A stretch of DNA of 64,000 nucleotides from Crossiella cryophila. GTDB lineage: Bacteria; Actinomycetota; Actinomycetes; Mycobacteriales; Pseudonocardiaceae. The notes beneath the pieces are model-generated. The model did not search any database. It saw nothing but the letters and a program-made list of their open reading frames with translations, and was not told the origin of the DNA. Both the position numbers and the translations under genes were made by a program. The stretch spans positions 1,984,001 through 2,048,000 of the forward strand of contig NZ_JACHMH010000001.1 in assembly GCF_014204915.1 (NCBI RefSeq). Reading direction: 5' to 3'. This document shows, one piece after another, positions 1 to 16,768 of this stretch (position 1 is the stretch's first letter; every line of letters starts with the position of its first letter).

Positions 1-750
1 AAGGTGCTGGCCACGCCGTTGACCAATGACGACATCGAGGGTGTGTACGCGGGCCTGCGGCCGCTGCTGTCCGGGGAGAGCGAGGACACCTCCAAGCTCT
101 CCAGGGAACACGCGGTGGCCAGGGTCGCGCCCGGCCTGGTGGCGATCGCGGGCGGGAAGTACACCACCTACCGGGTGATGGCGGCGGACGCGATCGACGC
201 GGCCAGCCCCGACCTGCCCGGCCGGATCATGTCCTCGATCACCGACAAGGTGCCGCTGCTGGGCGCGGACGGGTACCACGCGCTGGTGAACCAGGCCGAC
301 CAGCTCGGCGCCAAGCACGGCCTGCACCCCTACCGGGTGCGGCACCTGCTGGACCGCTACGGCTCGCTGGTGCACCAGGTGCTGGCCACCGCCGACGGCA
401 ACCCGGAGCTGCTCCGCCCGCTGGCAGGCGCGCCGGACTACCTCCAGGTCGAGATCGTCTACGCGGCCGCCTGCGAGGGCGCGCTGCACCTGGAGGACGC
501 GCTGACCCGGCGCACCCGGATCTCCATCGAGTACCCGCACCGCGGTGTGGAGAGCGCGGAGGCCGCGGCGAAGCTGATGGCAGGCGTGCACGGCTGGGAC
601 GACAAGCGGGTCGCGCACGAGATCGAGGTCTACACCGCCAGGGTCGAGGCCGAACGGGACTCGCAGACCCAGCCGGACGACCAGGCCGCCGACGCCCGGC
701 GCTCGGCCGCCCCGGAAGCCCGCCCCGAGGTCATCGAACCAGTCAGCTAA
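1..750 (+). CDS. glpD: Glycerol-3-phosphate dehydrogenase, C-terminal part (5' end outside window)
   Basis: This is the C-terminal 249 codons of an aerobic glycerol-3-phosphate dehydrogenase, the membrane-associated flavoenzyme that oxidises sn-glycerol 3-phosphate to dihydroxyacetone phosphate and passes electrons to quinone. The reading frame is already open at base 1, so the N-terminal FAD-binding part lies upstream. The segment VAIAGGKYTTYR matches the conserved 'GGK.TTYR' strand near the end of the FAD domain, and the remaining ~180 residues fit the helical C-terminal cap of the GlpD family. The last ~30 residues are a polar, Ala/Pro-rich tail. The gene converges on espG, with a phased repeat array between the two stop codons. 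Family assignment is firm; substrate specificity is by homology. Confidence 0.85.
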   Translation, partial: KVLATPLTNDDIEGVYAGLRPLLSGESEDTSKLSREHAVARVAPGLVAIAGGKYTTYRVMAADAIDAASPDLPGRIMSSITDKVPLLGADGYHALVNQADQLGAKHGLHPYRVRHLLDRYGSLVHQVLATADGNPELLRPLAGAPDYLQVEIVYAAACEGALHLEDALTRRTRISIEYPHRGVESAEAAAKLMAGVHGWDDKRVAHEIEVYTARVEAERDSQTQPDDQAADARRSAAPEARPEVIEPVS

Positions 751-756
751 CGCCCA

Positions 757-917
757 CAACGGCCAACCCGCCGTACGACAACGGCCAAACCGGCGTACAA
801 GAACGGCCAACACACGGTACGACAACGGCCAACACGCGCGGAGGGGTTCATACCCGCCGCGCGTGTTGGCCGTTCTGGGACGGTGTGTTGGCCGTTTTCG
901 TACGGTGTGTTGGCTGG
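757..917. repeat. Dyad-symmetric array of 22-bp repeats (4 forward, 3 inverted)
   Basis: The core ACGGCCAA starts at 759, 781, 803 and 825, exactly 22 bp apart. Its complement TTGGCCGT (last copy TTGGCTGG) occurs at 866, 888 and 910, again 22 bp apart. The copies mirror one another about position 849, where a short stem (CACGCGCGG/CCGCGCGTG) closes the centre. The unit consensus is ACGGCCAACACNCCGTACNA plus two bases. The array fills the gap between the convergent stop codons of glpD and espG. It could act as a bidirectional terminator through a long hairpin, or as a protein-binding array phased on two helical turns. The same 4+3 layout recurs at 13757-13922. Confidence 0.85.
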
Positions 918-923
918 TTTGGG

Positions 924-1718
924 TTAGGGGGTGAGGAGGTCGGTTAGGACCTCTTCCAGGTGTTGGGTGAGGCGGCGGGTGTCGACGGGGGCGATGGTGC
1001 TCCAGGCCGCGCCGCCGTCCTGGCTGCGGCGGGTTTGCAGGTAGCGGCCCGCCGGGGTGTCGAAGAAGCCGATCACCCGGTCGGCGCGGCGGCGGCGGGA
1101 CCACTGTTCCTTGGCGGCAACGCCGAACTGGCCGAGGTCGCCGGCGTCCTTGGTCATCTCGCTGATGACCTGGGCGTCCTCCGGGCGGATGCCGCGTTCG
1201 ATCAGTTCCGGGCCGAGGCGGTCCGCTGAGTTGCCCGCGGCCGCGGCGGCGGCGTCCAGGTCGGCGCTGGGCAGGGTGACCGAGCGGCCGGGCCCCGCGG
1301 CCAGCGGACGCAGCACGGCGATGGCCTCGCGGGGCAGGCTCAGGCCGGAGACGGCCTTGACGGTGAGCTGACCGGAGTCCAGCACGGCCAGCGCGCCCTC
1401 CTCCTCGCGCGCGGCGGCCAGCACCCGCACGCTGCGGCCCAGCCACAGCCTGCCGTCCACCTCACGCGCCGGATCGGCGAGCAGGTGCAGCAGTTCGGAG
1501 AGTTCGGCGTCCACCGCGACCGGGCGGCCCAGCCCTCGGGACTCCAGCGCGTCCCAGGCCTGCCGTTCCAGCCCGGCCCGCTCGGTGTGCGTGCGGCCGG
1601 GCGAGGGCACCTTGATCACCAGTGGCGGCTGGCCGAGGCCGAGGTGCTGCCACAGCACGTCGAACTCCAGCGCGGTCAGCGCGAACGGCTCCCGCAGCCC
1701 CTGCTCGAACAGGGTCAC
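924..1718 (-). CDS. espG: ESX secretion-associated protein EspG
   Basis: This 264-residue protein fits the EspG family, cytosolic chaperones that bind PE/PPE-type substrates and deliver them to type VII (ESX) secretion systems. The N-terminus (FALTALEFDVLWQHLGLG) and the late segment (GRYLQTRR, then SQDGGAAWSTIAPVD) resemble EspG proteins of Pseudonocardiales and mycobacteria, and the length is typical. The GTG start at 1718 overlaps the TGA of the upstream PPE-like gene by 4 nt, indicating translational coupling and a chaperone-substrate pairing. A longer upstream frame exists but is a shadow of the PPE-like gene. No EccB/C/D core gene is in the window, so the secretion machine must be elsewhere. 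Confidence 0.85.
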   Translation of the reverse strand: MTLFEQGLREPFALTALEFDVLWQHLGLGQPPLVIKVPSPGRTHTERAGLERQAWDALESRGLGRPVAVDAELSELLHLLADPAREVDGRLWLGRSVRVLAAAREEEGALAVLDSGQLTVKAVSGLSLPREAIAVLRPLAAGPGRSVTLPSADLDAAAAAAGNSADRLGPELIERGIRPEDAQVISEMTKDAGDLGQFGVAAKEQWSRRRRADRVIGFFDTPAGRYLQTRRSQDGGAAWSTIAPVDTRRLTQHLEEVLTDLLTP

Positions 1719-2860
1719 TCGCCGATCACCGGTGGCGCGTACTGGCGGGCGTCGCCGAAGACGTCGTCGTCCTCGACCAGGAAGCTCTGGTGTTCCCCGT
1801 CCTCCTCGCGCCGGGCCCGGCCCACCGGGGCCGCGGCGGCGGATCGGGCCGCCGGAGCCGGTTCTGGGTCGAGGCCGAGCACGCCGCCGGGGACATCGCC
1901 GCCGCGGCGGGACTCGGCGAGGTGGGTGGCCTCGGCCGCGTCCCAGGCCGGTCGGTGCTGCGGGCCGGGGCGGGTGGTCGCGGCCGAGGACGTCGTGCCC
2001 TCCACGCGGGGGTGCGGCAGGCCGCGGGCCGGTGCTGGGCTGGTGTTGCCGCCGGAGGGCGCGGTGGCGCTGGTTCCGGTGCTGGGCGCGGGGGTGGCCG
2101 CGGGCGGGGTGACGCCGCTGAGCCGAGTGCCGGGCCCGACCGGGGTGGTGCTGCCGCCGGTGGACATGGGCGTGCCGGCGCGCGGTGGGGCGGGCACCGG
2201 CGCGGAACCCGACCGGCCGCTGACCGGGCTGGGCGCGCTGCGGGCCGGTGGGACCAGGCGGGGCCGGGCCGGGGGTGGCGCGGTGGTGCCGATCGGGCCG
2301 CTGCCCTGCGGGCTGCCGTGGCCGGTGTCCAGGTGCAGTTCCGGCGGCTTGCTGAACTGGCCCAGCGTGGACACGTTGGCCGCGGTGCTGGTCTGGTAGA
2401 CCTCCATCACCTCGAAGGCCCGCTGCTCGGCCGCGCTCTGCGCCGCCTCCTGGATCTCGTAGTCGGTCTGCCCGCCGAAGAGGTGCACGATGCCGGTGAC
2501 CACCGGGTTCGGCTTCTCCGCGCTCACTTCCTTCGGCGCTGGCATGTCGGCGCGGGCCTTGCCAACGTACTCGGCCTGGAGTTCCGCGGACACCCGCATC
2601 ACCTCGGCGCCTGCCTGCGCGTCCCGGGCCCACTGGGCCAGCGGGTGCAGCGCGGCGTCGGCGGCGTCGGCGGCCTTGCCGGTCCAGTCCGCCCTGGAGT
2701 TGCCGAGGGCCTGCTTGATGTCGGCGTCGATGTCGGCCAGCGCCGCGGACATGTCCGACCAGCGGGTGATCGAGGCGGCCGAGGCGGCGGGTCCAGGTCC
2801 GTTGTGCAGCTGTCCGTACAGCTCCGCGTGCGAGTAGCCCTGCCAGCGGTGGTCACTCAT
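1715..2860 (-). CDS. PPE-like/WXG-fold ESX substrate with Pro-rich C-terminus
   Basis: The protein has 381 residues. The first ~150 form a helical, PPE-like domain with the turn motif DWTGKAADAAD (a W-x-G motif) and the segment QSAAEQRAFEVMEVYQ. This is followed by ~200 residues of low-complexity Pro/Ser/Thr/Gly sequence and an acidic C-terminal tail. The layout resembles ESX-exported PPE-family substrates. It starts at ATG 2860, 14 bp after the small WXG-like gene, and its stop overlaps the espG start, so the three genes form one operon. I infer export or surface exposure. The low-complexity region hides any C-terminal effector domain, and I see no recognisable toxin fold. Confidence 0.7.
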   Translation of the reverse strand: MSDHRWQGYSHAELYGQLHNGPGPAASAASITRWSDMSAALADIDADIKQALGNSRADWTGKAADAADAALHPLAQWARDAQAGAEVMRVSAELQAEYVGKARADMPAPKEVSAEKPNPVVTGIVHLFGGQTDYEIQEAAQSAAEQRAFEVMEVYQTSTAANVSTLGQFSKPPELHLDTGHGSPQGSGPIGTTAPPPARPRLVPPARSAPSPVSGRSGSAPVPAPPRAGTPMSTGGSTTPVGPGTRLSGVTPPAATPAPSTGTSATAPSGGNTSPAPARGLPHPRVEGTTSSAATTRPGPQHRPAWDAAEATHLAESRRGGDVPGGVLGLDPEPAPAARSAAAAPVGRARREEDGEHQSFLVEDDDVFGDARQYAPPVIGE

Positions 2861-2874
2861 CGTCGCCCCCTAGA

Positions 2875-3261
2875 TCAGCAGCCGCTGGTGCGCACCGAGT
2901 CGGCGTTCCCGCGCTCGGTGGCGCGGTACTCGTACTCGACCTCCTGCAGCGCCCGGACCGCGGTCTGCAGCTGCTGCTGGTAACCCTCCAGCGCGCTCAG
3001 CGCGGCGTCCCCGCCGTCCATGGAGCGGTCGTTGAACTTCTGCGCGGCCTCATCGCTGACCGGATCACCGGCCCATGGCCGCATCCGCAGGTCGGTGCGG
3101 GCGTGCCCGATCTGCGGGGTCAGCTTGTCCAGCGCCTTCTGGAACGCCTTGCGCATGGTCGGGATGGCGGCCTGCTCGACCCGGACCCGCGATCCGCCGC
3201 CGTTGACGGCGTCGAGACCGGACTGCACTGCGTCGCCACTGGCGGAGTTGGTGCGCGGCAC
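2875..3261 (-). CDS. Small WXG100-like helical protein of the ESX operon
   Basis: This 128-residue protein starts at GTG 3261 and is the first gene of the operon continuing into the PPE-like gene and espG. It is predicted to be mostly helical, with a central PWAGDPVSDEAAQKF turn that resembles the W-x-G turn of WXG100 or PE-type partners, and a long second helix (SALEGYQQQLQTAVRALQEV) ending in a charged tail. Position and size suggest the heterodimer partner of the PPE-like protein. I do not recognise a named family with certainty, and there is no signal peptide, as expected for type VII substrates. Confidence 0.6.
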   Translation of the reverse strand: MPRTNSASGDAVQSGLDAVNGGGSRVRVEQAAIPTMRKAFQKALDKLTPQIGHARTDLRMRPWAGDPVSDEAAQKFNDRSMDGGDAALSALEGYQQQLQTAVRALQEVEYEYRATERGNADSVRTSGC

Positions 3262-3361
3262 GGTGTCTCCCCGAACTGGACAATCCTTGCGCGGCCACTG
3301 TAGCGACCGTCAGTGATCACTTGGGGTGGTCTCCGTAACGATCCCACCTACCGGTGAACTG

Positions 3362-3940
3362 TCAACGGGCCATCAGGGTGGTCATGGCCGCGGTCGCCAC
3401 CTCCTGTGCGGAAGCGCACATCGCGTCCAGACCCGGCGGCGCCGCGTTGCCCGCGTCGCCGAACTGGATGTCCAGGAACTGGCCCTGCGCCACGTCCACC
3501 TCGACGTTGCAGAAGCGGGTCTGCTCGGCGGTGCGCACGATCACCGCGGGGAACTCGGCCACGGTGGCGGCCTTGACGTCGGCCTGCGCGGTCTCCTCCA
3601 GCCACACCCCGACGCCCTGCACCAGCACCAGCCCGATGCGCACGGTGAGCGCCCTGGTGGAGTCGCGGAAGTCGCACACCCTGGCGTTGCCCATGGTCGG
3701 GTAGCGGGTGGCCAGCGGCGGGCGATCCATGCCGAGTGCCTTGCGCTGGCGGGTGGTCAGCAGCGCGCACGGATCCACCCGATCGAGTTTGATCTCGCGC
3801 GGGCGCGGCGGCAGCGAGATCGACGGGGTGGTGATCGCCACCGGCGGCGGATTGGGCGCGGGCTTCTGCGGCGGGGGCGTGCACGCGGCGAGGGCGAGGC
3901 AGCCGAGCAGCAGCACTGGGAGCCGGGGCGGTCTCGACAT
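3362..3940 (-). CDS. DUF3558-type lipoprotein
   Basis: This 192-residue secreted lipoprotein has a short signal peptide ending in a lipobox (LALAAC), lipid-anchored at Cys20, followed by a Pro-rich linker. The rest matches the DUF3558 pattern common in Pseudonocardiales and mycobacteria: VDPCALLTTRQRKALG, a conserved internal cysteine in ARVCDFRD, and C-terminal cysteines. The start is ATG 3940, because the longer frame upstream is a shadow of the acetyltransferase gene. It lies between an ESX operon and a GNAT gene without obvious coupling. Function is unknown; location on the outer face of the membrane is inferred from the lipobox. Confidence 0.8.
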   Translation of the reverse strand: MSRPPRLPVLLLGCLALAACTPPPQKPAPNPPPVAITTPSISLPPRPREIKLDRVDPCALLTTRQRKALGMDRPPLATRYPTMGNARVCDFRDSTRALTVRIGLVLVQGVGVWLEETAQADVKAATVAEFPAVIVRTAEQTRFCNVEVDVAQGQFLDIQFGDAGNAAPPGLDAMCASAQEVATAAMTTLMAR

Positions 3941-3960
3941 GCCGGGCAGGCTAGCCGACC

Positions 3961-4500
3961 TCAGACCACCAGCGACCAGGCGAGCACGTCGTGCAGTTCG
4001 CCGTCGACGGTGGTGGCCTGGTGCAGGGTGGCCTCCAGGGTGAAGCCGCACTTCTCCGCGACCCGGCGGGAGGACTCGTTGGCCGCGGCGTGCCGGTAGC
4101 CGATCCGGCGCAGGCCGAGGCCGTCGATGCCGAAGCGCAGCGCGGTCTGCAGGGCCTGGGTCATCACGCCGCGGCCGCGGTGCTCCGGATGGGTCCAGCA
4201 GGCCGCGGAACCGATGCCGCGCACCAGGTCCAGGTCCTTGAGACCGACCTCGGCGAGCAGTTCGCCGGTGGTCGGCTCGGCCACCGCCCAGGAACAGCGC
4301 AGGTCGTCCTGCCACTCCCGGTCGCGCAGCGCGATGTAGCGGCCCGCGCTGTCCAGGTCCTCGACCTGGTAGCCGGTGACCCAGCGCCGCAGCTCCGGGT
4401 CGACGAAGGCGGCCAGCACCGCGGGCCGGTCGTCCAGCAGCCGGTCCGCCCGCAGCTGCCGCAGGTAGTACGCGCCCGCGTTGATCTCCACCGGCTCCAT
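3961..4500 (-). CDS. GNAT family N-acetyltransferase (RimJ/RimL type)
   Basis: This 179-residue protein resembles RimJ/RimL-like acetyltransferases, which transfer acetyl from acetyl-CoA to N-terminal or small amines. The acetyl-CoA pyrophosphate loop is visible as HPEHRGRGVMTQAL (residues ~100-114, Q/RxxGxG/A type), followed by the family segment ANESSRRVAEKCGFTLEATL. Length is typical. Its stop is 20 bp from the lipoprotein start codon on the same strand, so co-transcription is possible. The substrate cannot be read from the sequence. Confidence 0.85.
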   Translation of the reverse strand: MEPVEINAGAYYLRQLRADRLLDDRPAVLAAFVDPELRRWVTGYQVEDLDSAGRYIALRDREWQDDLRCSWAVAEPTTGELLAEVGLKDLDLVRGIGSAACWTHPEHRGRGVMTQALQTALRFGIDGLGLRRIGYRHAAANESSRRVAEKCGFTLEATLHQATTVDGELHDVLAWSLVV

Positions 4501-4510
4501 GCCGCTGAAC

Positions 4511-4975
4511 CTACTTGCGCTTCTTCTTGCGCTTGTTCCTGCCCTGCCCGCCGTTCCAGTCCTCGCCCCACAGCGAGCCGTACACCGCGCCGACGCCCAT
4601 CAGCACGAAGATCCACCACCACCAGCCCAGGAAGATCAGCAGTGGGATCCAGGCCGCGCCGAGCACCACCAGGCTCACCGCGGCGGCCCGCTGGGCCGGT
4701 GTGCGCGGGTCGGTGGGGACCGCGACCTCGCCACCGCCCTCGACCTTGGCCACCGCGGTGGTGGCAGGCAGGCCGTCGAAGCGCGGGTGCGGTTCGGGCA
4801 GGTCTGCGAAGAGTCCGCGCAGCTCGCCGCGGGTCATCGAGGCGGCCACCTTCGCCGCCCGCTGGTCGTACTCGGTGAGTTGCAGCCTGCCCACGGCGAA
4901 GTGCTCGCCGAGCGCGCTCAGCGCCGCGGACCGTTCGGTATCGCTGATCCGCAGTTCAGGCTCGTTGTCCGGCAC
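4511..4975 (-). CDS. DUF1707 (SHOCT-like) membrane protein
   Basis: The protein has 154 residues. The N-terminal ~55 residues match DUF1707 (RISDTERSAALSALGEHFAVGRL, then EYDQRAAKVAASMTRGELRGLFADL). Two hydrophobic segments follow around residues 95-135, and the C-terminus is a very basic Lys/Arg tail. DUF1707 domains are small helical modules usually attached to membrane regions in actinobacteria; their role is not established. A paralogue lies immediately upstream, with 9 bp between stop and start, so the pair is probably one transcript that arose by tandem duplication. Confidence 0.8.
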   Translation of the reverse strand: MPDNEPELRISDTERSAALSALGEHFAVGRLQLTEYDQRAAKVAASMTRGELRGLFADLPEPHPRFDGLPATTAVAKVEGGGEVAVPTDPRTPAQRAAAVSLVVLGAAWIPLLIFLGWWWWIFVLMGVGAVYGSLWGEDWNGGQGRNKRKKKRK

Positions 4976-4984
4976 AACCCGATG

Positions 4985-5479
4985 CTACTTCGGCTTGAAC
5001 CGCTGCACTCCGACCACGATCCCGGCCAGCACCAGCACGCCGATGGCGGCCGCGGTCAGCATGGCGAGCGAATGCGGCAGCCGGTCCACGATGGCCAGGG
5101 TGAAACCGCCACCGGCCAACAGGGTCAGCCCGGCCACCGGGATGCCGATCAGCACCGCCAGCACCTTGGCCACGGTGTGCGCGGCGTCAGTGGACTGCGA
5201 CCGCATCGGCACCATCCCGACCGGCATCGCCACCGGCTCGGTCAGCGGCTGGTACTGCAGCGGCGCGGGCAGCTCGAAGGTCGGGTGCGGTGCCGGCAGG
5301 TCCTCGAAGAGCATGGACAGCTCCCGGCGGGTGCGGGCCGAGACCGCGATGTTGGCCCGCTCGCCGAATTCCTCCGCGGTCAGCCGACCGACCCTGAGGT
5401 GCTCGCCGAGCAAGCGCTCGGCCTCGGTCCGCTCGGTGTCCCCGATCCGCAGCTCGACGTGATCCCCATGTGTGCTCAC
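4985..5479 (-). CDS. DUF1707 (SHOCT-like) membrane protein, paralogue
   Basis: This 164-residue paralogue of the next gene downstream has the same N-terminal DUF1707 module (RIGDTERTEAERLLGEHLRVGRL, ending ELSMLFEDLPAPHP) and two predicted membrane helices near residues 100-155, but a different linker. It starts at ATG 5479 and is the first gene of the pair. Upstream on the minus strand lie two 10-bp direct repeats (TAGCCAAAAG) 21 bp apart, a possible regulator site. Function is unknown. Confidence 0.8.
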   Translation of the reverse strand: MSTHGDHVELRIGDTERTEAERLLGEHLRVGRLTAEEFGERANIAVSARTRRELSMLFEDLPAPHPTFELPAPLQYQPLTEPVAMPVGMVPMRSQSTDAAHTVAKVLAVLIGIPVAGLTLLAGGGFTLAIVDRLPHSLAMLTAAAIGVLVLAGIVVGVQRFKPK

Positions 5480-5519
5480 ACCGTCGACGTTAGGGATCGG
5501 GGACGGGTGCGCCCTCGGC

Positions 5520-5550
5520 CTTTTGGCTATCGGTCGCCGACTTTTGGCTA
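5520..5550 (-). promoter_or_regulatory. Pair of 10-bp direct repeats upstream of the DUF1707 pair
   Basis: CTTTTGGCTA occurs at 5520-5529 and again at 5541-5550, start to start 21 bp, about two helical turns. On the minus strand this reads TAGCCAAAAG twice, about 40-70 bp upstream of the first DUF1707 start codon. Spacing and position suit a dimeric regulator or sigma-factor site. The distal copy includes the stop codon of the small acidic protein gene. Confidence 0.4.
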
Positions 5551-5817
5551 AGGCTGGCTGACGAAGCCGTCGTGCGCCTCGGCCAGCTCCTCCAGCCGGT
5601 CCTGCCAGCAGGTGGCCGCCAGGCCGTCGGGGGCGGTCTCCAGGACCACCACCCAGTCCACGTCCTCGGCGTCGTCCTCGCCTGCCAGCATCTCGCGGTG
5701 CACGCCGCCGACCACCCAGCCGTCGGCGCGCAACTCCGCCGCGAGGTCCTCCGCCTCCTGGCGGTCGTGCAGGACCAGTAGGAGACTCTGGTTCTCAGTC
5801 TGGATTGGACTGTCCAC
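5548..5817 (-). CDS. Small acidic protein downstream of the carboxylase alpha subunit
   Basis: This 89-residue protein starts at GTG 5817, 5 nt after the stop codon of the acyl-CoA carboxylase alpha subunit gene, and is almost certainly co-transcribed with it. It is strongly acidic (for example LAGEDDAEDVDWVVVLE) with a ferredoxin-like alternation of strands and helices (LLLVLHDRQEAEDLAAEL, then GWVVGG). I do not recognise a named family. Coupling to the biotin carboxylase suggests an accessory or regulatory role, which is inference from position only. Confidence 0.65.
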   Translation of the reverse strand: MDSPIQTENQSLLLVLHDRQEAEDLAAELRADGWVVGGVHREMLAGEDDAEDVDWVVVLETAPDGLAATCWQDRLEELAEAHDGFVSQP

Positions 5818-5822
5818 TGTGG

Positions 5823-7580
5823 TCAGTCTTTCAGCTCGCAGAGCACGCTGCCCTGGGTCACCGTCTCCCCGGCCTTGGCTGACAGGCCGGTGACGACGCC
5901 GTCCTTGTGCGCGGTGACCGGGTTCTCCATCTTCATCGCCTCCAGCACCACGAGCAGCTCGCCCGCGCTGACCCGCTGGCCGTCCTCGACCGCGACCTTG
6001 ACGATGGTGCCCTGCATGGGCGCGGCCACCGCGTCGCCGGAGACCGCGGCCCCGGCCTTGCCACCGGCCCGCTTGCGCGGCTTGGCCTTGGCCGCGGGCG
6101 CGCCACCGCCGCCGATGGCCAGGTCGCCGGGCAGCGAGACCTCCAGCCGACGGCCGCCGACCTCGACCACCACGGTCTGCCGGGGGCTGTCCTCCTCGGC
6201 CTCCGCACCGGCGCCGAAGGGCGGGATGGTGTTGTCGAACTCGGTCTCGATCCACCGGGTGTGCACGGTGAAGCCGTCCTCGGCGGTGAACGCCGGATCG
6301 CGCACCACGGCCTGGTGGAACGGGATCACGGTGGCCATGCCCTCCACCACCAGCTCCTCCAGCGCGCGCCGGGAGCGTTCCAGGGCCTGCTCGCGGGTCT
6401 CGCCGGTGACGATCAGCTTGGCCAGCAGCGAGTCGAACTGGCCGCCGATCACGCTGCCGCTCTCCACACCCGCGTCCACCCGCACGCCGGGGCCGGTGGG
6501 CGGCAGGAACCGGGTGACCGTGCCGGGTGCGGGCAGGAAGTTGCGGCCCGCGTCCTCGCCGTTGATGCGGAACTCGATGGAGTGGCCGCGTGGTTCCGGG
6601 TCGGTGTCGAAGCGCAGCTTCTCCCCGGCGGCGATGCGGAACTGCTCGCGCACCAGGTCGATCCCTGCGGTCTCCTCGCTGACCGGGTGCTCGACCTGGA
6701 GCCGGGTGTTGACCTCCAGGAAGGAGATGGTGCCGTCCTGGCCGACCAGGAACTCCACCGTGCCCGCGCCGTGGTACCCGGCCTCGGCGCAGATCGCGCG
6801 GGCCGCGGTGTGGATGGTGGCGCGCTGCTCGGCGGAGAGGAACGGCGCGGGGGCCTCCTCGACCAGCTTCTGGTGCCGGCGCTGCAGTGAGCAGTCACGG
6901 GTGCCGACCACGATCACGTTGCCGTGTGTGTCCGCCAGCACCTGGGCCTCGACGTGCCGCGGCTTGTCCAGGTAACGCTCCACGAAGCACTCGCCGCGGC
7001 CGAAGGCGGTGACCGCCTCGCGCACCGCGCTGTCGAACAGCTCCGGGATCTCCTCCAGCGTCCTGGCCACCTTCAGCCCGCGCCCGCCGCCGCCGAACGC
7101 GGCCTTGATCGCCACCGGCAGACCGTGTTCCTGCGCGAAGGCGATGATCTCCGCCGGTCCGTTCACCGGGTCCTTGGTGCCGGGCACCAGCGGGGCGCCC
7201 GCGCGCAGCGCGATGTGCCGGGCGGTCACCTTGTCGCCGAGGTCGCGGATGGCCTGCGGGGTGGGGCCGATCCAGGTCAGGCCCGCGTCCAGCACCGACT
7301 GGGCGAATTCGGCGTTCTCGGAGAGGAAGCCGTAGCCGGGGTGCACCGCGTCCGCGCCCGCGCGCTTGGCCACGTCGATCAGCTTGTCCGCGACCAGGTA
7401 GGACTCGGCCGCGGTGGCGCCGCCCAGCGCGAACGCCTCATCGGCCAGGCGCGCGAACGGCGCGTCCCGGTCCGGGTCGGCGTAGACCGCGACGCTGGTC
7501 AGCCCGGCGTCCCGGCAGGCCCTGATGACTCGGACGGCGATCTCACCGCGGTTGGCGATGAGCACCTTGCGCAGTGGCAC
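5823..7580 (-). CDS. accA3: Acyl-CoA carboxylase alpha subunit (biotin carboxylase/BCCP)
   Basis: This 585-residue fusion comprises biotin carboxylase (residues ~1-450: [11 protein letters not shown] near the start, ATP-grasp glycine loop FGGGGRGLK at ~162-170, [11 protein letters not shown], and [14 protein letters not shown]) and a C-terminal biotin carboxyl carrier domain with EAMKMENP, whose Lys550 is the expected biotinylation site. It uses ATP and bicarbonate to carboxylate biotin. The carboxyl group is then passed to CoA substrates by the AccD-type beta subunit encoded at 20247-21896. The GTG start at 7580 has a GGAGG ribosome binding site. BirA, encoded at 25377, should biotinylate it. 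Symbol by synteny and similarity to mycobacterial accA3. Confidence 0.93.
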
Positions 7581-7608
7581 GGCACCTCCATGTGCTGGCG
7601 ACCCCGGA

Positions 7609-7635
7609 ACGACACGTTCATACGAGACGACACGT
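7609..7635 (-). promoter_or_regulatory. Direct repeat upstream of the carboxylase alpha subunit
   Basis: ACGACACGT occurs at 7609-7617 and 7627-7635, 18 bp apart, within 55 bp of the carboxylase GTG start and in the divergent gap shared with the secreted protein gene at 7762. It may be an operator or part of a promoter; no clear -10/-35 pair is visible to me. Confidence 0.25.
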
Positions 7636-7761
7636 CATCGAAAAGGGTGGTGTTCGGCGAGTCTAGGGTCCAGGGGTGATGCACTGGGCGAGAGCAACCT
7701 CACGTGGTGTGTCCGCGTCGGTGGTATGAGCGCGTTGGGTGAAAGGCGGAGGTGAGCTGCG

Positions 7762-8514
7762 GTGGCCGAGCAAACGGCCAGGGTGCCACGGGCGGTGAAG
7801 GTCGCGATGTGGTTGTCCGCGGTGCTGACGGTCGCGGCGTTGCTGGGTTCGGCGATGCTGCGGGAGGCGCCCTCGGCCTCGGGCGGTGTGTCGGGTTCGG
7901 CGCTGCCCAGCACCGAGCTGCGCGCCCCGGCCAGCAGCGCGCCAGCCGGGCCCGCGTTGCGGTGCGGCTCCGGTCCCTGCGTCGAGGTGGACAGCGCCAC
8001 CCTGGACGGGGTGAAGGTGGAGCTGCTCGCCGACTCGGCAGGCGCGTTCAGCCGGGTGCGGTTCAACGAGGGCGGCGACTCGCCGATCAACGTGCACGAG
8101 ACGCTGGCCATCTCACTGGGCGGCCGGGTGCAGAAGGGCTCGCTGACCTGCGTGGCCGCCAGCAAGTACCAGGCCTGCCTGGTCACCTTCGCCCAGTCCG
8201 ACGACGGCTCCAGGATGGGCACGCTGTATGAGAAGCCGCCGGGCAGGCCATGGGTGCGGGTGGAGGCCTCCTACCCGTCCGACCTGGGTGTGCTGCAACT
8301 GCGGGATGTGAACAACGACGGCATCCCCGAGGTGCTCAGCGTGGAGACCGCCTGCGACGGCAACGGCAACTTCCAGGGCTGCAAGCGGTTCGTGCTCCGG
8401 GCGTTCAACCACGACGGCAGTTTCCTCGGCTGCACCGCGGTGGTGAACCGCAAGGAGCTGCTGCCCGGCTGGCCCAATCTGGCGCCGACCAAGCAGCAGC
8501 TCCGGGAGTGCTGA
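7762..8514 (+). CDS. Membrane-anchored or secreted protein of unknown function
   Basis: This 250-residue protein begins at GTG 7762 after a GGAGG site. An uncleaved or cleavable N-terminal membrane segment (residues ~12-32) is followed by a Ser/Ala/Pro-rich linker and a ~180-residue extracytoplasmic domain with several cysteines likely to pair as disulfides (CGSGPC, then LTCV...ACLV, and a Cys-terminated C-terminus). The segment RDVNNDGIPEVLSVE resembles FG-GAP/EF-hand-like calcium loops found in integrin-type repeats. I cannot assign a family. It is divergent from the carboxylase and converges on the symporter gene 7 bp away. Confidence 0.65.
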   Translation: MAEQTARVPRAVKVAMWLSAVLTVAALLGSAMLREAPSASGGVSGSALPSTELRAPASSAPAGPALRCGSGPCVEVDSATLDGVKVELLADSAGAFSRVRFNEGGDSPINVHETLAISLGGRVQKGSLTCVAASKYQACLVTFAQSDDGSRMGTLYEKPPGRPWVRVEASYPSDLGVLQLRDVNNDGIPEVLSVETACDGNGNFQGCKRFVLRAFNHDGSFLGCTAVVNRKELLPGWPNLAPTKQQLREC

Positions 8515-8521
8515 GCGGGGA

Positions 8522-9844
8522 TCAGACCGTCGCGGGCACCCGCTGCTCGTCCTTGCTCTCCTCGGTCGCGTCCTGGGCCAGCGGGTCGCCGGTGGCCGGG
8601 GCGTTGAACACCTCGTCGTCCAGGGTGCCCTCGCTGCGCGCGACCAGCACCGGAACCACCATCTGACCGGCCACGTTGGTGGCGGTGCGGATCATGTCCA
8701 GGATCGCGTCGATGGCGATGATCAGGCCGACCCCGGCCAGCGGCAGGCCAACCGTGGACAGGGTGAGGGTGAGCATCACGATCGCGCCGGTGAGCCCGGC
8801 GGTCGCGGCCGAGCCGAACACCGACACCGCGGCGATGAGCACGTAGTCGGTGAAGGAGAGCTGCACGCCGTAGACCTGGGCCACGAAGATCGCGGCGATG
8901 GCCGGGTAGACCGCGGCGCAGCCGTCCATCTTGGTGGTCGCGCCGAAGGGCACCGCGAAGCTGGCGTACTGCTCGGGCACGCCGAGGCGGCGGATGGTGG
9001 TCTGCTGGGTCAGCGGCAGGGTGCCGATGGAGGAGCGGGAGACGAAGGCCAGCTGGATCGGCGCCCACGCCTTGGCGAAGAAGCGGACCGGGTTGACCTT
9101 GCCGACCAGGGCCAGCAGCAGCGGGTAGACCACGAACAGCACGATCGCGCAGCCCGCGTAGACCGCGATGGCGAAGGTGGCCAGTGGGCGCAGCAGGTCG
9201 AAGCCGTACTGCGCGGTGGCCCGGCCGATCAGGCCGAGGGTGCCCAGCGGGGCGAGCCGGATGACCCACCACAGCGCCTTCTGGGTGATCTCCAGCAGGG
9301 ACCGGTTGAAGTTCACGAACGGCTCGGCCTTGCTGCCGACCTTGTACGCGGCGATGCCGATCACCACGGCCAGGAACACGATCTGCAGCACCCGGCCCTC
9401 GGTGAAGGCCAGCACCGGGTTGGTCGGCAGCAGGCCCTTGAGGAAGTCCAGCCAGCCGCCCTGGCTCTTCGGCTTGTAGCCCGGGTCCACCGGCAGGGTG
9501 ACCCCCTGACCGGGGTTGGTCAGCAGGCCGACGCCAATGCCGACGAGCACCGCGATCAGCGAGGTGATGCCGAACCAGAGCAGGGTCTTGCCGGCCAGCC
9601 TGGCCACCGTGCCGGGCCCGCCGTTGACGTTGCGCAGGTTGGCGATGCTCACCACGATCGCGGTGAACACCAGCGGCACCACGGCCAGCGTGAGCAGCTG
9701 CACGAAGGTGCTGCCGACGGTGGCCAGTGTGGTGGAAAGCCAGGTCAGATCGTTTGCCCTGGCGAGAACACCGAGTAGGACGCCGAGTACGAGACCGGTG
9801 ACGGTCTGCGCCCAGAACGGAAACTTCTTGAGTGCGGACAGCAC
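8522..9844 (-). CDS. dctA: Dicarboxylate/amino acid:cation symporter (DAACS/SDF family)
   Basis: This 440-residue polytopic membrane protein of the sodium:dicarboxylate symporter family carries out secondary uptake of C4-dicarboxylates or acidic amino acids. Diagnostic features are the serine-rich re-entrant hairpin (SRSSIGTLPLT), the motif ATTKMDG in helix 7 and the late segment DAILDMIRTATNVAGQ, which carries the substrate-binding Asp/Arg/Thr/Asn residues. Length is normal. It starts at GTG 9844. A 5+4+5 bp inverted repeat lies 130 bp upstream. The substrate could be dicarboxylate or glutamate/aspartate; the symbol is tentative. Confidence 0.88.
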   Translation of the reverse strand: MLSALKKFPFWAQTVTGLVLGVLLGVLARANDLTWLSTTLATVGSTFVQLLTLAVVPLVFTAIVVSIANLRNVNGGPGTVARLAGKTLLWFGITSLIAVLVGIGVGLLTNPGQGVTLPVDPGYKPKSQGGWLDFLKGLLPTNPVLAFTEGRVLQIVFLAVVIGIAAYKVGSKAEPFVNFNRSLLEITQKALWWVIRLAPLGTLGLIGRATAQYGFDLLRPLATFAIAVYAGCAIVLFVVYPLLLALVGKVNPVRFFAKAWAPIQLAFVSRSSIGTLPLTQQTTIRRLGVPEQYASFAVPFGATTKMDGCAAVYPAIAAIFVAQVYGVQLSFTDYVLIAAVSVFGSAATAGLTGAIVMLTLTLSTVGLPLAGVGLIIAIDAILDMIRTATNVAGQMVVPVLVARSEGTLDDEVFNAPATGDPLAQDATEESKDEQRVPATV

Positions 9845-9973
9845 GAATTCCCCCAGGGAATCATGGGTTGGGACGGTTCAGGGCTGAGCGGGGGCGAAGC
9901 TCAGGCCGGACAGAGCGAACTCGCCAGACGTCCCAGATCGACGTGGCGGCGCTCGGTGAAGAACCATCGGATG

Positions 9974-9987
9974 CCCATGACTATGGG
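9974..9987 (-). promoter_or_regulatory. Short inverted repeat upstream of the symporter gene
   Basis: CCCAT-GACT-ATGGG is a perfect 5-bp inverted repeat in the 211-bp gap between the symporter start and the maf stop. It may be an operator for the symporter. The rest of this gap shows no open frame or strong structure. Confidence 0.3.
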
Positions 9988-10055
9988 TAGAACTGTAAAT
10001 CCTGTTCACGTCTTCCCCGACCCCCTAACGGGTGAGGACAGTCACGTTGAGCAGG

Positions 10056-10688
10056 CTATTTAACCCAAAGATCAACTACCGAGACGCCGACCGCGCTGAG
10101 TAGCCGGCGGGTCAGCGGCAGGCTGATCCCGATCACGCTGCCGTGGTCGCCGTCGATGCCCTCGACGAACCAGCCGCCCAGTCCGTCCAGGGTGAACCCG
10201 CCAGCCACGTGCAGGGGTTCGCCGCTGGCCAGATACGCCTCCAGCTCGGCCTCGCTGGGCGCGGACCAGCGCACCGTGGTGCTCATGGTCTCCTGCGCGC
10301 GGGCCACCACCTGGCCGCCGCTGATCCGGACCACGGCGTGCCCGGTGAGCAGTTCGCCGGTGCGGCCGGCCATCAGCAGCCAGCGCTGCCGGGCGATCTC
10401 GGTGTTCGCGGGCTTGCCGACGATCTCCGGGCCGTCCGGGGTGTCCATCAGCAGCATCGAGTCGCAGCCGACCACCACGGCCTCGGTCAGTTCGGCGGTC
10501 ACCACCGGCAGCACGGCCTCGGCCTTGGCCGCCGCGAGGGCCACCACCACCTCGGCGGGCTTGGGGTCGGGCAGCGCGGCGGCGACCGCGTCCTCGTCAA
10601 CGCCGGAGACGTGCACCACGGGGTCGATGCCCGCGGTGCGGAGCACGTTGAGCCGGGCGGGGGACTGGGAAGCCAGAACAAAGCGCAC
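10056..10688 (-). CDS. maf: Maf-like nucleoside triphosphate pyrophosphatase
   Basis: This 210-residue protein belongs to the Maf/HAM1-like pyrophosphatases, which hydrolyse non-canonical or selected NTPs to NMP and PPi. The N-terminal phosphate loop ASQSPARL (residues 6-13), the GCDSMLL segment, KPANTEIARQ and the GG-F motif followed by EGIDGDHGSVIG are all present. The GTG start at 10688 lies inside a strong hairpin (10684-10718), which is unusual. In M. tuberculosis a Maf gene also sits beside the accE-accD genes; here an alpha-galactosidase block has been inserted between them. Confidence 0.9.
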   Translation of the reverse strand: MRFVLASQSPARLNVLRTAGIDPVVHVSGVDEDAVAAALPDPKPAEVVVALAAAKAEAVLPVVTAELTEAVVVGCDSMLLMDTPDGPEIVGKPANTEIARQRWLLMAGRTGELLTGHAVVRISGGQVVARAQETMSTTVRWSAPSEAELEAYLASGEPLHVAGGFTLDGLGGWFVEGIDGDHGSVIGISLPLTRRLLSAVGVSVVDLWVK

Positions 10689-10718
10689 GGCCGGGCAGCT
10701 TAGTTGCCCGGCCGTGCG
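10684..10718 (-). terminator. 14-bp perfect hairpin between the alpha-galactosidase gene and maf
   Basis: CGCACGGCCGGGCA (10684-10697) and its exact complement (10705-10718) enclose a 7-nt loop. On the minus strand the hairpin follows the alpha-galactosidase stop codon by 13 bp and is followed only by a weak TTTGTT tract, so it may be an imperfect intrinsic terminator. Its 3' arm contains the GTG start codon of maf, so the same RNA structure could hold maf translation low on read-through transcripts. Confidence 0.55.
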
Positions 10719-10731
10719 CGTTGATCCGGCT

Positions 10732-12534
10732 CTACTTCACGACCTCGACGCGGTCCAGGTCCGGGGCGTAGTTGCCCGGGTTGCTGAACTTCAGCGAGTT
10801 CGCGCCTGCCTTGAGCTTGACCACGATCTCGGCCACGCCGGGGGTGCCCCAGCCGCCGGTGGGCGGCAGGTCGAAGTTGATGTTCGCGGCCCCGTTCACG
10901 CCGACCGCGAACGACCGCTGGTCGCCCGAGACGTAGCCCACCCGCACGGTGTAGTCGCCCGCCCTCGGCACCGTGATGCCGTTGAGGGTGACCGAGCCGT
11001 TGCCCAGGTCGCCGACCTTGCGGCCGCCCGAGCAGCCGGCGCAGTCGGCCAGCTTGGCGCCACCGGCCAGCACGCTCTCGGTCGCCTCGGCCTCGACCCC
11101 GGTGGGCTGGCCGCCCGGGGTGATCTTGAGCAGCCGGGTGCCGTGCGTGGGCACCTCGGCGGTGAAACCGTGCTGGTAGGTGCCCAGCGCGGCGCCCGCC
11201 CAGACGTCGCGGACCTGGGCCGGGCCGGTGATGCCCAGCTCGGCGAAGACCGCGTCCACCGGGGCCTTGGCCGCGCCCAGGTTGAACAGGGCAACGGTGT
11301 GGCTGCCGTCGGCGTTCTTGACCGACCAGACCTGCTGGTCAACCCCGGTGCGCACCGGCTTGGCAGGCATGCCGTTCTGGTTGATCGCCAGCACCTCGCG
11401 GTTGGTCAGCAGCGATTTGCCGTAGCTGTCCAGCTGGGTGAGGTCGTCGCCGATGTAGAGCGGGGCGTTGGTGACCGCCCACAGGGTCATGTAGCTGCGC
11501 CGCTCGTCCGGGGTCAGGCCGTCCATCACGCCGTTGCCCACGTTGAGCGTGTCCAGGTCGTTCCACTGGCCCGGCTTGGCGTGCTGGAGCCACTGCGGCA
11601 GGTCGGCGAACCGGTCGTCCACGGAGTTCTGCCAGGTCACCAGGGTCGGGCAGTAGCACTCGACGTCGGTGTTGATCCGCCAGCCGGTGGCGTGTTCCTT
11701 CCAGAAGTCGATCGCCTTGATGTCGATCGACCAGGAGAGTTCGAGGATGATCTTGCGGCCGGTCTTGTCCAGGCCCTTGCGCCAGGCCGCCACGTCCGGG
11801 CGGTTGTCGTAGTTGGGGCCTTCCTTCCACGAGCCGGGGCCGACGCCGTCCAGCTTGAAGAAGTCGACCTGCCAGTCACCGAACATCCGGGTGATCGAGT
11901 CGATGTACTTCTGCGCGCAGGGCTTGTCGAAGTCGATCTTGTAGGCGTTGTCCCAGCCGTTGGTGGTGCGCCAGTCCGGGTAGACGATGTCGTTGCCGGT
12001 GCAGCCGGGCGCGCCCTGGATGGGGAAGTTGCGCCGGTTGGCCTGGTCCAGGCCGAATGCCTCTTTCTGCAGGCCGACGGGCTGGTAGATGCCGAACTTC
12101 AGCCCCTTGCGGTGCAGCTGCTCGGAGAGCCACTTGATGCCGTGCGGGAACTTCTCCTGGTCGGCCTTGGGGCGGCCGTACTCGTCGAACTGGGGCACCC
12201 AGCCCCAGGTGTGCCACCAGCCGGCGTCGATGTTGATGTAGTTGTAGCCGTACTGCTTGAGGTCGCGGGCCAGCACCTCGGCCTGCTTGAGCACGTTGGC
12301 CTCGGTGAGGAAGCTGGCGCGCCCCTTCGGGTTCACCCCCGGGTAGGAGGTGGTCTGCAGGCTCCAGCTGCTCCAGCCCATGTAGGGGCGCACCGCGGGC
12401 GCGGCCTGGGCGTCGGCGGACTGGGTTTCCTGCTGGCTGGCCGGCGCCTGGGCAGCGGGTGCGGCCTGCGCGGCGGCGCCCAGTCCGCTGGCCACGAGGC
12501 CGAGCGCGAGCAGGATTCGGGGTAAGGACCGCAT
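10732..12534 (-). CDS. Secreted GH27 alpha-galactosidase with C-terminal carbohydrate-binding module
   Basis: This 600-residue secreted protein has a Sec signal peptide of ~25 residues and an Ala/Gln-rich linker. A GH27 (alpha-galactosidase/N-acetylgalactosaminidase-like) barrel from residue ~50 includes YMGWSSW, NIDAGWW, and FFKLDG with Asp229 as probable nucleophile. RINTD carries the probable acid/base residue, and GQWNDLDTLNVGNG is a family signature. An antiparallel domain follows, then from ~residue 478 a CBM35/CBM6-like module (VEAEATESVLAGG, ending LKFSNPGNYAPDLDRVEVV). It should release terminal alpha-linked galactose-type sugars outside the cell. It is divergent from a ROK regulator with an operator-like palindrome between them. 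Confidence 0.9.
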   Translation of the reverse strand: MRSLPRILLALGLVASGLGAAAQAAPAAQAPASQQETQSADAQAAPAVRPYMGWSSWSLQTTSYPGVNPKGRASFLTEANVLKQAEVLARDLKQYGYNYINIDAGWWHTWGWVPQFDEYGRPKADQEKFPHGIKWLSEQLHRKGLKFGIYQPVGLQKEAFGLDQANRRNFPIQGAPGCTGNDIVYPDWRTTNGWDNAYKIDFDKPCAQKYIDSITRMFGDWQVDFFKLDGVGPGSWKEGPNYDNRPDVAAWRKGLDKTGRKIILELSWSIDIKAIDFWKEHATGWRINTDVECYCPTLVTWQNSVDDRFADLPQWLQHAKPGQWNDLDTLNVGNGVMDGLTPDERRSYMTLWAVTNAPLYIGDDLTQLDSYGKSLLTNREVLAINQNGMPAKPVRTGVDQQVWSVKNADGSHTVALFNLGAAKAPVDAVFAELGITGPAQVRDVWAGAALGTYQHGFTAEVPTHGTRLLKITPGGQPTGVEAEATESVLAGGAKLADCAGCSGGRKVGDLGNGSVTLNGITVPRAGDYTVRVGYVSGDQRSFAVGVNGAANINFDLPPTGGWGTPGVAEIVVKLKAGANSLKFSNPGNYAPDLDRVEVVK

Positions 12535-12570
12535 CGTTGCTGACCCTTCACTGGCGGGGACCGGGTTTTC

Positions 12571-12587
12571 TTTCCTTGGGAAGGAAA
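12571..12587. promoter_or_regulatory. Probable ROK operator between the alpha-galactosidase and regulator genes
   Basis: TTTCCTT-GGG-AAGGAAA is a perfect 7-bp inverted repeat 37 bp upstream of the alpha-galactosidase ATG and 15 bp before the ROK GTG. It is the only strong symmetry in the 67-bp divergent gap. ROK repressors bind A/T-flanked palindromes of this size, so this is the likely site for repression of both genes, relieved by the released sugar. Confidence 0.6.
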
Positions 12588-12601
12588 ATTAGCATCGTGG
12601 T

Positions 12602-13747: not shown

Positions 13748-13756
13748 CGTACAACA

Positions 13757-13922
13757 ACGGCCAACGTGCCGTACAAGAACGGCCAACACACCGTCCCAGA
13801 ACGGCCAACACACCGTCCCAGAACGGCCAACACGCCGACGAGGGTTTCAACCCTCAACCCTCCGCGCGTGTTGGCCGTTCTTGTACCCAGTGTTGGCCGT
13901 TGTGGGACACCGTGTTGGCCGT
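13757..13922. repeat. Second dyad-symmetric array of 22-bp repeats (4 forward, 3 inverted)
   Basis: ACGGCCAA starts at 13757, 13779, 13801 and 13823. TTGGCCGT starts at 13871, 13893 and 13915. All spacings are exactly 22 bp and the units mirror each other about 13850.5. Unit sequences are more uniform than in the first array (for example ACGGCCAACACACCGTCCCA). The array begins 9 bp after the ROK stop codon. Like the first copy, it sits downstream of a plus-strand gene that converges on a minus-strand gene. Confidence 0.85.
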
Positions 13923-14000
13923 TCTTGTACGCCTTAGGCGATTGCGTGCGGGCGAAGCCCGAACACCAGCGGCCGGGGTGGCTTTTCAACACTCCCCGAG

Positions 14001-14150
14001 CGGTTCCCCCATCCCCGTCAGCCTGGAGAGGACACACCACATCCCGGGCAAGCAGACCGCAACCTGCCGCCGCCCTAGCCACCCAACCGCACGGTCTGCT
14101 TGTTCGGGATGTGGTTTGGTATCGGAAGGCTGACGGGGATGGGGGAACCG
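14001..14150. repeat. Long palindrome 1 (about 150 bp)
   Basis: Outer arms of 24 bp (14001-14024 and 14127-14150) are perfectly complementary; they begin CGGTTCCCCCATCCCC. Inner arms of 24 bp (14036-14059 and 14092-14115, beginning ACCACATCCCG) differ at two positions only. The 32-nt centre (14060-14091) is unpaired and, with the flanking base, contains a 28-nt sequence (14059-14086) that reappears inverted in the loop of palindrome 3. No open frame with coding character covers the region. It is part of the 961-bp gene-free interval 13748-14708. Confidence 0.85.
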
Positions 14151-14167
14151 TACGAGCACTGCTCTTT

Positions 14168-14319
14168 GCTCTTGTCTTTGACTTTCCCCCCCATCCTTTG
14201 ATTTCTGCCCGTCCGGCGAGGACGCCCTTGATCTTGACTTTGGGTTTTAGGTCAAGATCAAAAAAGGATGGCCTCGCCGGCCGGGCAGACCACCGGAGGG
14301 GGGAGGGCAGATCAAGAGC
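14168..14319. repeat. Long palindrome 2 (about 150 bp)
   Basis: The innermost arms TTGATCTTGAC (14229-14239) and GTCAAGATCAA (14251-14261) are exact. Moving outward, further complementary blocks pair: GGCGAGG (from 14215) with CCTCGCC (14272-14278), TGCCCG (from 14206) with CGGGCA (to 14287), and GCTCTTG (14168) with CAAGAGC (to 14319), with bulges between them. The centre is A/T-rich, unlike the surroundings, and an A-run follows the right arm. Read on the minus strand, T-rich sequence precedes the stem, so it is not a simple intrinsic terminator. Confidence 0.7.
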
Positions 14320-14381
14320 CGGGTAAGCAGGTTGCGGGGCATGGGTTTGGGTTGCCGACTCGAGAACCAGCGTGGCTCCGA

Positions 14382-14540
14382 GGGCTCGCGTGTTCTCCGC
14401 ACGGCCTTCCGCAAGCCAACCACACCCCGAGGAGCGGCCCCCGTCACGCTTGGGTGGCTAGGGCGGCGGCAGGTTGCAGGGGCCGCTCCTCGGGGCGCGG
14501 TCAGCAAGCTCCAGGCCGTACGGAGAACACGCGAGAACCC
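14382..14540. repeat. Long palindrome 3 (about 160 bp)
   Basis: The outer arm CTCGCGTGTTCTCCGCACGG (within 14385-14406) pairs with 14514-14535 with one mismatch. The inner arm CCCCGAGGAGCGGCCCC (14425-14441) pairs exactly with 14479-14495. The loop 14442-14478 carries the same 28-nt sequence as the loop of palindrome 1 in the opposite orientation (14450-14477, TTGGGTGGCTAGGGCGGCGG and onward). Shared loop with unrelated arms suggests a defined element rather than chance. Confidence 0.8.
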
Positions 14541-14586
14541 TCGTCGTGGGGTTTCACCCCAAACCCCCAACCCGCCCCGTCCCATA

Positions 14587-14645
14587 ACGGCCAACGACCC
14601 GTACAAGAACGGCCAACACTCCGTACAAGAACGGCCAACACGCGT
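14587..14645 (+). repeat. Half array: three 22-bp repeat units
   Basis: ACGGCCAA starts at 14587, 14609 and 14631, 22 bp apart, with the unit form ACGGCCAACACTCCGTACAA. It ends in CACGCGTG, the same sequence that closes the stem of the full arrays, but the inverted half is missing. The terminator of the peptidase gene follows directly. It may be a truncated copy. Confidence 0.8.
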
Positions 14646-14653
14646 GAAAAAGA

Positions 14654-14691
14654 AAGGCGGGGCAGCCCCTGGGGGAGGGGTGCCCCGCCTT
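14654..14691 (-). terminator. Intrinsic terminator of the peptidase gene
   Basis: AAGGCGGGGCA (14654-14664) and TGCCCCGCCTT (14681-14691) form a perfect 11-bp stem, extended by C/G pairing inside. On the minus strand it lies 17 bp after the stop codon at 14709 and is followed by TTTCTTTTT. This is a good Rho-independent terminator. Confidence 0.85.
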
Positions 14692-14708
14692 GGGATTCGT
14701 GTGGAGTG

Positions 14709-16679: not shown

Positions 16680-16768
16680 GAACACCTCCTGTGATCTGGC
16701 TTGGACGCTAGGCCCACTCCTTTTCAGTTGCCAGGTCCGACTGTCCGGACTATTGGGCGTGTCCTTGG

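Follow-up and report, generated by a model that had tools for sequence, protein, structure and literature searches.

Arrays of 22-bp repeats behind Crossiella genes and the altered spelling of the gene tails beside them

It has long been asked whether repeats of the REP/BIME type have a function at transcript ends or are mere passengers. REPs are located between convergent and co-directional genes (PMC3733652), and they have been stated to facilitate Rho-dependent termination (PMC2817692); rut sites are described as C-rich and G-poor (PMC9160355, PMC6407284). Neither an account of the Crossiella arrays analyzed here nor a counterpart of their tandem 22-bp phase inside the arms was found in the open-access literature. 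One study tabulates three other Actinomycetota, and its main text does not contain the word "Crossiella" (PMC12306157); another deals with short direct repeats that precede start codons and differ from these arrays (PMC4679880). The genus offers five congeners with loads from 618 down to 5 phased pairs, with differing unit sequences and with orthologous junctions that are filled, differently filled or empty. Function, turnover and effect on coding sequence can therefore be tested side by side.

The window, a stretch of 64,000 nucleotides, comes from the Crossiella cryophila genome (G000), a single contig of 10,058,141 bp. Its first array wholly occupies the 173-bp gap (751-923) between the convergent stop codons of a glpD-like and an espG gene (Table 1). 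Copies of the forward unit ACGGCCAA start at 759, 781, 803, and 825, and exact inverted copies, TTGGCCGT, start at 866 and 888. A further inverted unit at 910, TTGGCTGG, has two mismatches. The original prediction of four forward and three inverted copies thus holds for the four forward and two of the inverted units, the third inverted unit being degenerate. Every step across 759-917 is exactly 22 bp, and forward and inverted partners mirror each other about position 849, just as predicted. The arms of the inverted repeat (784-845 and 853-914) are 62 nt long and 82% complementary. The phasing is genuine, as had been claimed. Allowing up to three mismatches, the 18-mer ACGGCCAACACNCCGTAC is present at 13 places in the window versus 0.36 expected, and these matches form three arrays. 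A CRISPR reading was ruled out, in agreement with the original prediction, since the 22-bp units are contiguous, lack unique spacers and run in two polarities.

Predicted RNA folds of the glpD/espG array were strong on both the plus strand (-121.4 kcal/mol, z -9.2) and the minus strand (-107.2 kcal/mol, z -7.5). On either strand the fold is mainly a single long stem with small side features, which, together with arms that do not covary across the family (see below), lends no support to the "multi-armed" structure initially proposed. A scan of this junction (600-1100) detected no hairpin followed by a T-run, the pattern of an intrinsic terminator. Rfam returned two matches at E <= 1 for window positions 1-15500, both of them weak miRNA-family matches below the gathering scores.

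Table 1. Positions of the genes, arrays and dispersed modules in the window
Feature	Position	Strand	Remarks
glpD-like gene, 3' part	1..750	+	Pfam DAO_C; stop TAA
Four forward (">") 22-bp units, last one entering the centre	758..835	+	
Central short hairpin GCGCGG...CCGCGC	836..862	.	among 29 listed inward centres
Three inverted ("<") units, outermost decayed	863..917	-	
EspG-family gene	924..1718	-	stop TAA
Second inward array (>>>><<<)	13757..13922	.	behind ROK gene (12602-13747 +)
Dispersed module m1, taken as non-coding	13949..14235	.	26 matches >=150 bp in 2.86-Mb sample, own copy counted
Dispersed module m2, taken as non-coding	14252..14573	.	12 matches >=150 bp in sample, own copy counted
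Third array (>>>)	14587..14641	+	beside peptidase S15 gene (14709-16685 -)

The repeat is abundant throughout the genome. The exact 11-mer ACGGCCAACAC occurs 816 times (411 + 405), compared with 11 occurrences (5 + 6) of a reversed-motif control. Phase and placement were analyzed in a sample made up of the window and 140 pieces of 20 kb, together 2.864 of 10.058 Mb (28%); the final piece was taken from the contig end and does not follow the grid, and a grid piece inside the window was skipped. Genes were called with a home-made codon-usage script instead of a standard caller, giving 2469 genes and 87.9% coding sequence in the sample. Among same-strand neighbours less than 130 bp apart, 117 of 140 spacings were 22 bp and 10 of 140 were 21 bp. 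For the looser core TTGGCC, 217 pairs were spaced by 22 bp and 50 by 21 bp, versus 0 and 2 for the reversed core. The 401 phased cores in the sample fell into 82 clusters, 73 of them intergenic: 46 were convergent, 25 co-directional and 2 divergent, with 6 inside called genes and 3 at sample edges. Counted by junction, arrays were present at 35 of 411 where genes converge, at 21 of 1501 where they are co-directional and at 2 of 416 where they diverge (Fisher, convergent versus divergent p 2e-9, versus co-directional p 2e-11). A 22-bp phase across the genome and enrichment in convergent intergenic regions, on which the original prediction had staked itself, are thus both found in this 28% sample. 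Since bacterial stem-loops in general favour convergent gaps (PMC1590033), placement by itself is not a specific sign. For 55 of 71 clusters at convergent or co-directional genes, the nearest 3' end was at most 62 bp away, and 20 of the 25 co-directional clusters lay closer to a 3' end. The sampled pieces from about 0.5 to 1.5 Mb of G000 contained no multi-copy cluster, and one copy lies in that region among the matches listed.

Arrays are built in two polarities, inward (>>>centre<<<) and outward (<<<spacer>>>). Inward arrays have a short central hairpin, often around GGGTTTCAACCC. Outward arrays consist of 21/22-bp units in varying number, the longest run being 11, and they start with TGT and finish with ACA. 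They are asymmetric: of 19 arrays, 12 had GGTG in the outermost segment of a single end, none had it at both ends and 7 had it at neither. An eleven-unit run of 21/22 bp is carried by the outward array at L146 10664-10926.

The two dispersed modules (Table 1) accompany the arrays. Leaving out matches shorter than 150 bp, their copies in the sample share 84-95% identity, the window's own copies aside, and lie mostly beside or between arrays, in several places between outward arrays. Both also occur in one sampled piece (L054) that nevertheless has no array. The region 13949-14573 is rich in inverted repeats, and a 28-nt stretch at 14059-14086 recurs inverted at 14450-14477. Among the best 40 of 138 candidates in G000, m1 copies are 89-100% identical to the query. 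Relatives of m1 with about 75% identity are found in two congeners, G002 and G004, although G004 is nearly devoid of 22-bp arrays.

Within the taxonomic family examined, the arrays are present in numbers only in Crossiella. Phased GTTGGCC-N15-GTTGGCC pairs numbered 618, 289, 249, 166, and 5 in the five Crossiella genomes G000 to G004, and at most 5 per genome elsewhere (390 genomes from 46 genera of the family). The frame GTTGGCC-N6-GTAC-N5 is kept in 38 of 40 matches, the first ten listed for each of G000-G003, while its filling differs by species. G001 carries a second version, GTTGGCCCAAC, with at least 81 BLAST rows on both strands (best 40 of 286 candidates scored); among the matches listed, this version gave 12 weaker rows in G000 and none in G002-G004. 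Outside the genus, a short 22-bp tandem of GTTGGCCGCTGCCGCCCGGCGG without GTAC occurs in another genus of the same family (G351:C1:5304572-5304644). A slight excess of ACGGCCAACAC was seen in G059 and G046, from genera g19 and g43 (13 + 24 and 15 + 4, controls 4 + 1 and 0 + 0), and neither genome has a phased GTTGGCC pair. Searches of mobile-element collections, which may omit records close to the window's genome, returned no match in IMG/VR (one exact pattern), in plasmids (query 13740-14710) or in phages (query 745-930).

Ten orthologous junctions were compared between G000 and G001, nine chosen for their array and one (J5) met through an EspG paralogue. At five of them (glpD/espG, window 13748, L103a, L146b, and L109b), G001 has its own version of the array. 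At L103b, L146a, and L109a the alignment is continuous; from end to end, the two genomes differ in net length by 2, 43, and 8 bp, which makes a G001 array of similar length likely. At L146c, 624 bp in G001, including an m1 relative, correspond to 209 bp in G000. J5 is empty in G001, where the two stops overlap in CTAG, and in G000 CTAG flanks the array on both sides. Conversely, all three junctions with a G001 array that fall within the G000 sample carry G000 arrays; three further G001 loci lie outside it. The glpD/espG gap contains no array in G002, G003, G004 or Crossiella sp. SN42, and since G002-G004 manage without one, the array is dispensable there. SN42, whose EspG is 92% identical to that of the window, is the nearest of three named records found and the basis for assigning the five genomes to Crossiella. 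These comparisons indicate that arrays persist or recur at individual junctions while their unit is rewritten genome-wide. In the G001 orthologue of L146 10664-10926, a short array of the G001 version lies in an unaligned gap that is reduced by 216 bp. At L033/L186 and L055/L199, the sister species differ in the last codons and the stop at the very point where the array region starts, which looks as though these junctions had been replaced into the gene tail.

Genes ending beside arrays are spelled differently from other genes. TAA was used at 32 of 73 stops whose 3' end lies within 100 bp of an array, versus 129 of 2272 elsewhere (about 8-fold; p 1e-19). Third-position G dropped along the 34 array genes that are 900 bp or longer, from about 38% at a distance of 900-750 bp to 21% ahead of the stop, versus 41-44% throughout in 326 other convergent genes. 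Of the two-fold codons in the last 60 bp, 53% had A as last base in array genes versus 15%, and four-fold sites in the same interval had 67% C, 21.5% G, and 1.0% T versus 44.6, 45.7, and 4.9%. Mean third-position G rose with the distance between array and stop, from 0.246 below 20 bp to 0.269 at 20-40 bp and 0.304 at 40-100 bp; farther off it was 0.412 at 100-300 bp (n = 4) and 0.366 beyond (n = 43). A weak tail of the skew reaches about 1 kb.

The direction of change was followed at the nucleotide level for four gene ends at two junctions, with relatives lacking an array there as controls; in the codon comparison, the rows of J5 gene 1 for G002 and G004, which are out of frame, were left out. 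Of the 22 substitutions in array lineages within the last 150 bp, 18 removed a G and none created one, whereas in control lineages 3 of 12 removed a G and 7 created one (Fisher p 1e-4). The contrast fades farther upstream, where array lineages lost 7 and gained 3 of 13 at 150-300 bp and lost 14 and gained 9 of 30 at 300-600 bp. In 23 genes with an array facing their 5' end from no more than 330 bp away, bases 30-150 showed no comparable skew (third-position G 38.4 versus 42.2%, A 3.8 versus 4.0%, T 5.8 versus 3.8%). The signal therefore belongs to the 3' ends of transcripts rather than to array-flanking DNA, and the same genes rule out a mutational cause acting symmetrically around the DNA array, such as breakage or outward synthesis. 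Selection at the RNA level may have shaped this footprint, and a transcription-linked mutational bias is possible as well; that C and A were gained and T lost in the tails lends mild support to selection. On the whole, the arrays look like a species-specific gene-end marker that accompanies an altered spelling of the adjacent gene tails.

We propose that the Crossiella arrays are BIME-like interspersed mosaic repeats serving as bidirectional transcript-end elements, perhaps by combining C-rich Rho loading with a hairpin, and we give this reading a little less than an even chance. The arrays consist of 22-bp units, GTTGGCC-N6-GTAC-N5, in tandem and in inverted halves (inward or outward), mostly right after stop codons. 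The end of the coding sequence and the bases just behind the stop yield a C/A-rich, G/T-poor RNA, a form bound by Rho. The array would then fold into a long hairpin that could slow RNA polymerase, shield the 3' end, or both, and between convergent genes one array would serve both. An RNA with little G and U forms hardly any pairs and, when rich in C, is preferred by Rho (PMC9160355, PMC6407284).

The C-rich, G-poor RNA upstream of the end that is a trait of Rho-dependent terminators is present as a trend of the family. A 78-nt stretch with a C/G ratio of at least 2 was found at 43 of 67 array ends, versus 44 of the 686 other convergent ends and 126 of the 1357 that remain; the other 24 of the 67 array ends stay below this ratio. 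In the window, the best 78-nt values are 4.44 for espG, 3.42 for ROK, and 2.47 for S15, and glpD, at 1.85, falls below 2. Against shuffles, 25 of 26 array junctions folded with z < -3, versus 23 of 34 control gaps (convergent, 60-300 bp, picked for lacking TTGGCC); most of the 14 printed control folds resemble one compact hairpin by eye. The missing T-run is no objection to a terminator, because 353 of 535 highly structured transcript ends of Streptomyces clavuligerus are without a U-rich tract (PMC8269248).

Other observations fit less well. Identity at the 16 inter-unit positions was no higher within junctions than between them, either for inward arrays (11.88 versus 12.25, n = 25; 11.43 versus 11.84, n = 14) or for outward arrays (12.05 versus 12.78, n = 19), which indicates that pairing as such is not visibly maintained and counts against a pure RNA-stem view. 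The skew tail of about 1 kb exceeds the length of a rut site and T depletion is more than Rho demands, and both count against the Rho reading. The bidirectional terminator of the original prediction survives as a 3'-end element, backed by position and by the coding-strand footprint; termination or protection of the 3' end would be its function, perhaps with Rho involved.

A serious rival to the transcript-end reading is neutral spread, although we consider it rather unlikely. The arrays would be selfish or neutral MITE/REP-like repeats, spreading or gene-converted, that survive only behind genes since they are harmful elsewhere, and any effect on termination would be incidental. Hundreds of copies in species-specific versions speak for it, as do the modules m1 and m2, repeated at 84-95% identity in the sample. 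J5 fits as well, with its array in G000 only, CTAG on either side and overlapping stops in G001, and the convergent enrichment of the pneumococcal BOX, RUP, and SPRITE repeats has been read as possible parasitic mobility (PMC3049150). However, neither of the two transposase families checked, Y1 and rve, tracks copy number, and mere tolerance leaves the coding-strand footprint, specific to 3' ends, unexplained. A more particular form of mobility, in which the arrays would form the multi-site ends of a transposon like Tn7 or Mu, or of miniature elements derived from it, is very improbable. The ends of Mu and Tn7 carry tandem 22-bp sites, outward arrays have TGT and ACA at their tips, and m1 and m2 lie between outward arrays in several places. 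Yet rve, the only family checked for this purpose, numbers 1, 3, 0, 17, and 3 in G000-G004 versus 618, 289, 249, 166, and 5 phased pairs, out of proportion to the copies, and this candidate was rejected; no target duplication was seen by eye at the tips, and the viral, phage and plasmid searches gave no match (one exact pattern or one query each).

The arrays could instead act as DNA, with a protein on each 22-bp unit, much like the binding at every two helical turns that the original prediction suggested, and a role in chromosome topology or in insulation where transcription converges. The two blocks of the unit, GTTGGCC and GTAC, have centres 10 bp apart, and the frame is kept in 38 of the 40 listed matches from four species while the filling changes. 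Arms without covariation and asymmetric outward arrays also suit a DNA site, and BIME-2 of Escherichia coli is stated to bind gyrase (PMC2817692). We nevertheless regard such a role as decidedly unlikely: the binding protein is putative, 21 co-directional junctions have arrays as well, and the footprint lies on the sense strand of transcripts, at their 3' ends.

The transcript-end reading can be extended to a repeat population domesticated in one genus. Repeat-built bidirectional terminators would be rewritten in concert, species by species, and after their arrival would drive neighbouring tails to C/A-rich RNA (TGA to TAA, G-ending to C- or A-ending codons), giving a co-evolving coding and non-coding 3'-end signal. 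We hold this extension to be doubtful but with an appreciable chance. If true, a non-coding repeat that reshapes neighbouring synonymous codons and stop-codon choice would apparently be new.

Several known systems share features with the arrays. Rho-dependent terminators with a downstream hairpin likewise have C-rich, G-poor sense RNA ahead of the hairpin; the arrays differ in being repeat-built, bidirectional and genus-specific, and the role of Rho here is one that we infer. The pneumococcal BOX elements (boxA-boxBn-boxC) are similarly modular, with variable inner tandem units and convergent enrichment (PMC3049150), whereas the arrays have another sequence and frame and their 22-bp unit makes up both arms. 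REPIN-RAYT systems resemble them in having inverted doublets able to fold as hairpins and populations confined to a genome, but compensatory changes are common in REPINs (PMC3116915), unlike in the arms of the arrays. The RAYT-type Y1 transposase (PF01797) has no match in G002, G003 or G004, one match with an inner stop in G000, and three in G001, one in a 301-aa frame and two in neighbouring fragments. A RAYT origin was therefore rejected: Y1 does not track copy number, and the array-rich G002 and G003 are without a match.

By behaviour, the arrays are nearest to the BIME/REP (PU) repeats of enterobacteria and pseudomonads. The original prediction had set them apart from REP, a view that does not stand: in how their polarity alternates, in copy number and placement, and in being specific to a species they behave like REP/BIME, even if no Y1 transposase tracks them. 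REP units are 20-40 bp long and carry a GTAG or CGTC tag; in the 22-bp unit here, which has GTAC, no such tag was noticed by eye. A tandem 22/21-bp period inside each arm and skewed tails of the adjoining genes distinguish the arrays from BIME/REP. In common with it they have hundreds of extragenic palindromic units in species-specific versions, alternating polarity with two kinds of spacer (here the inward centre and the outward spacer), and a position at convergent and co-directional 3' ends.
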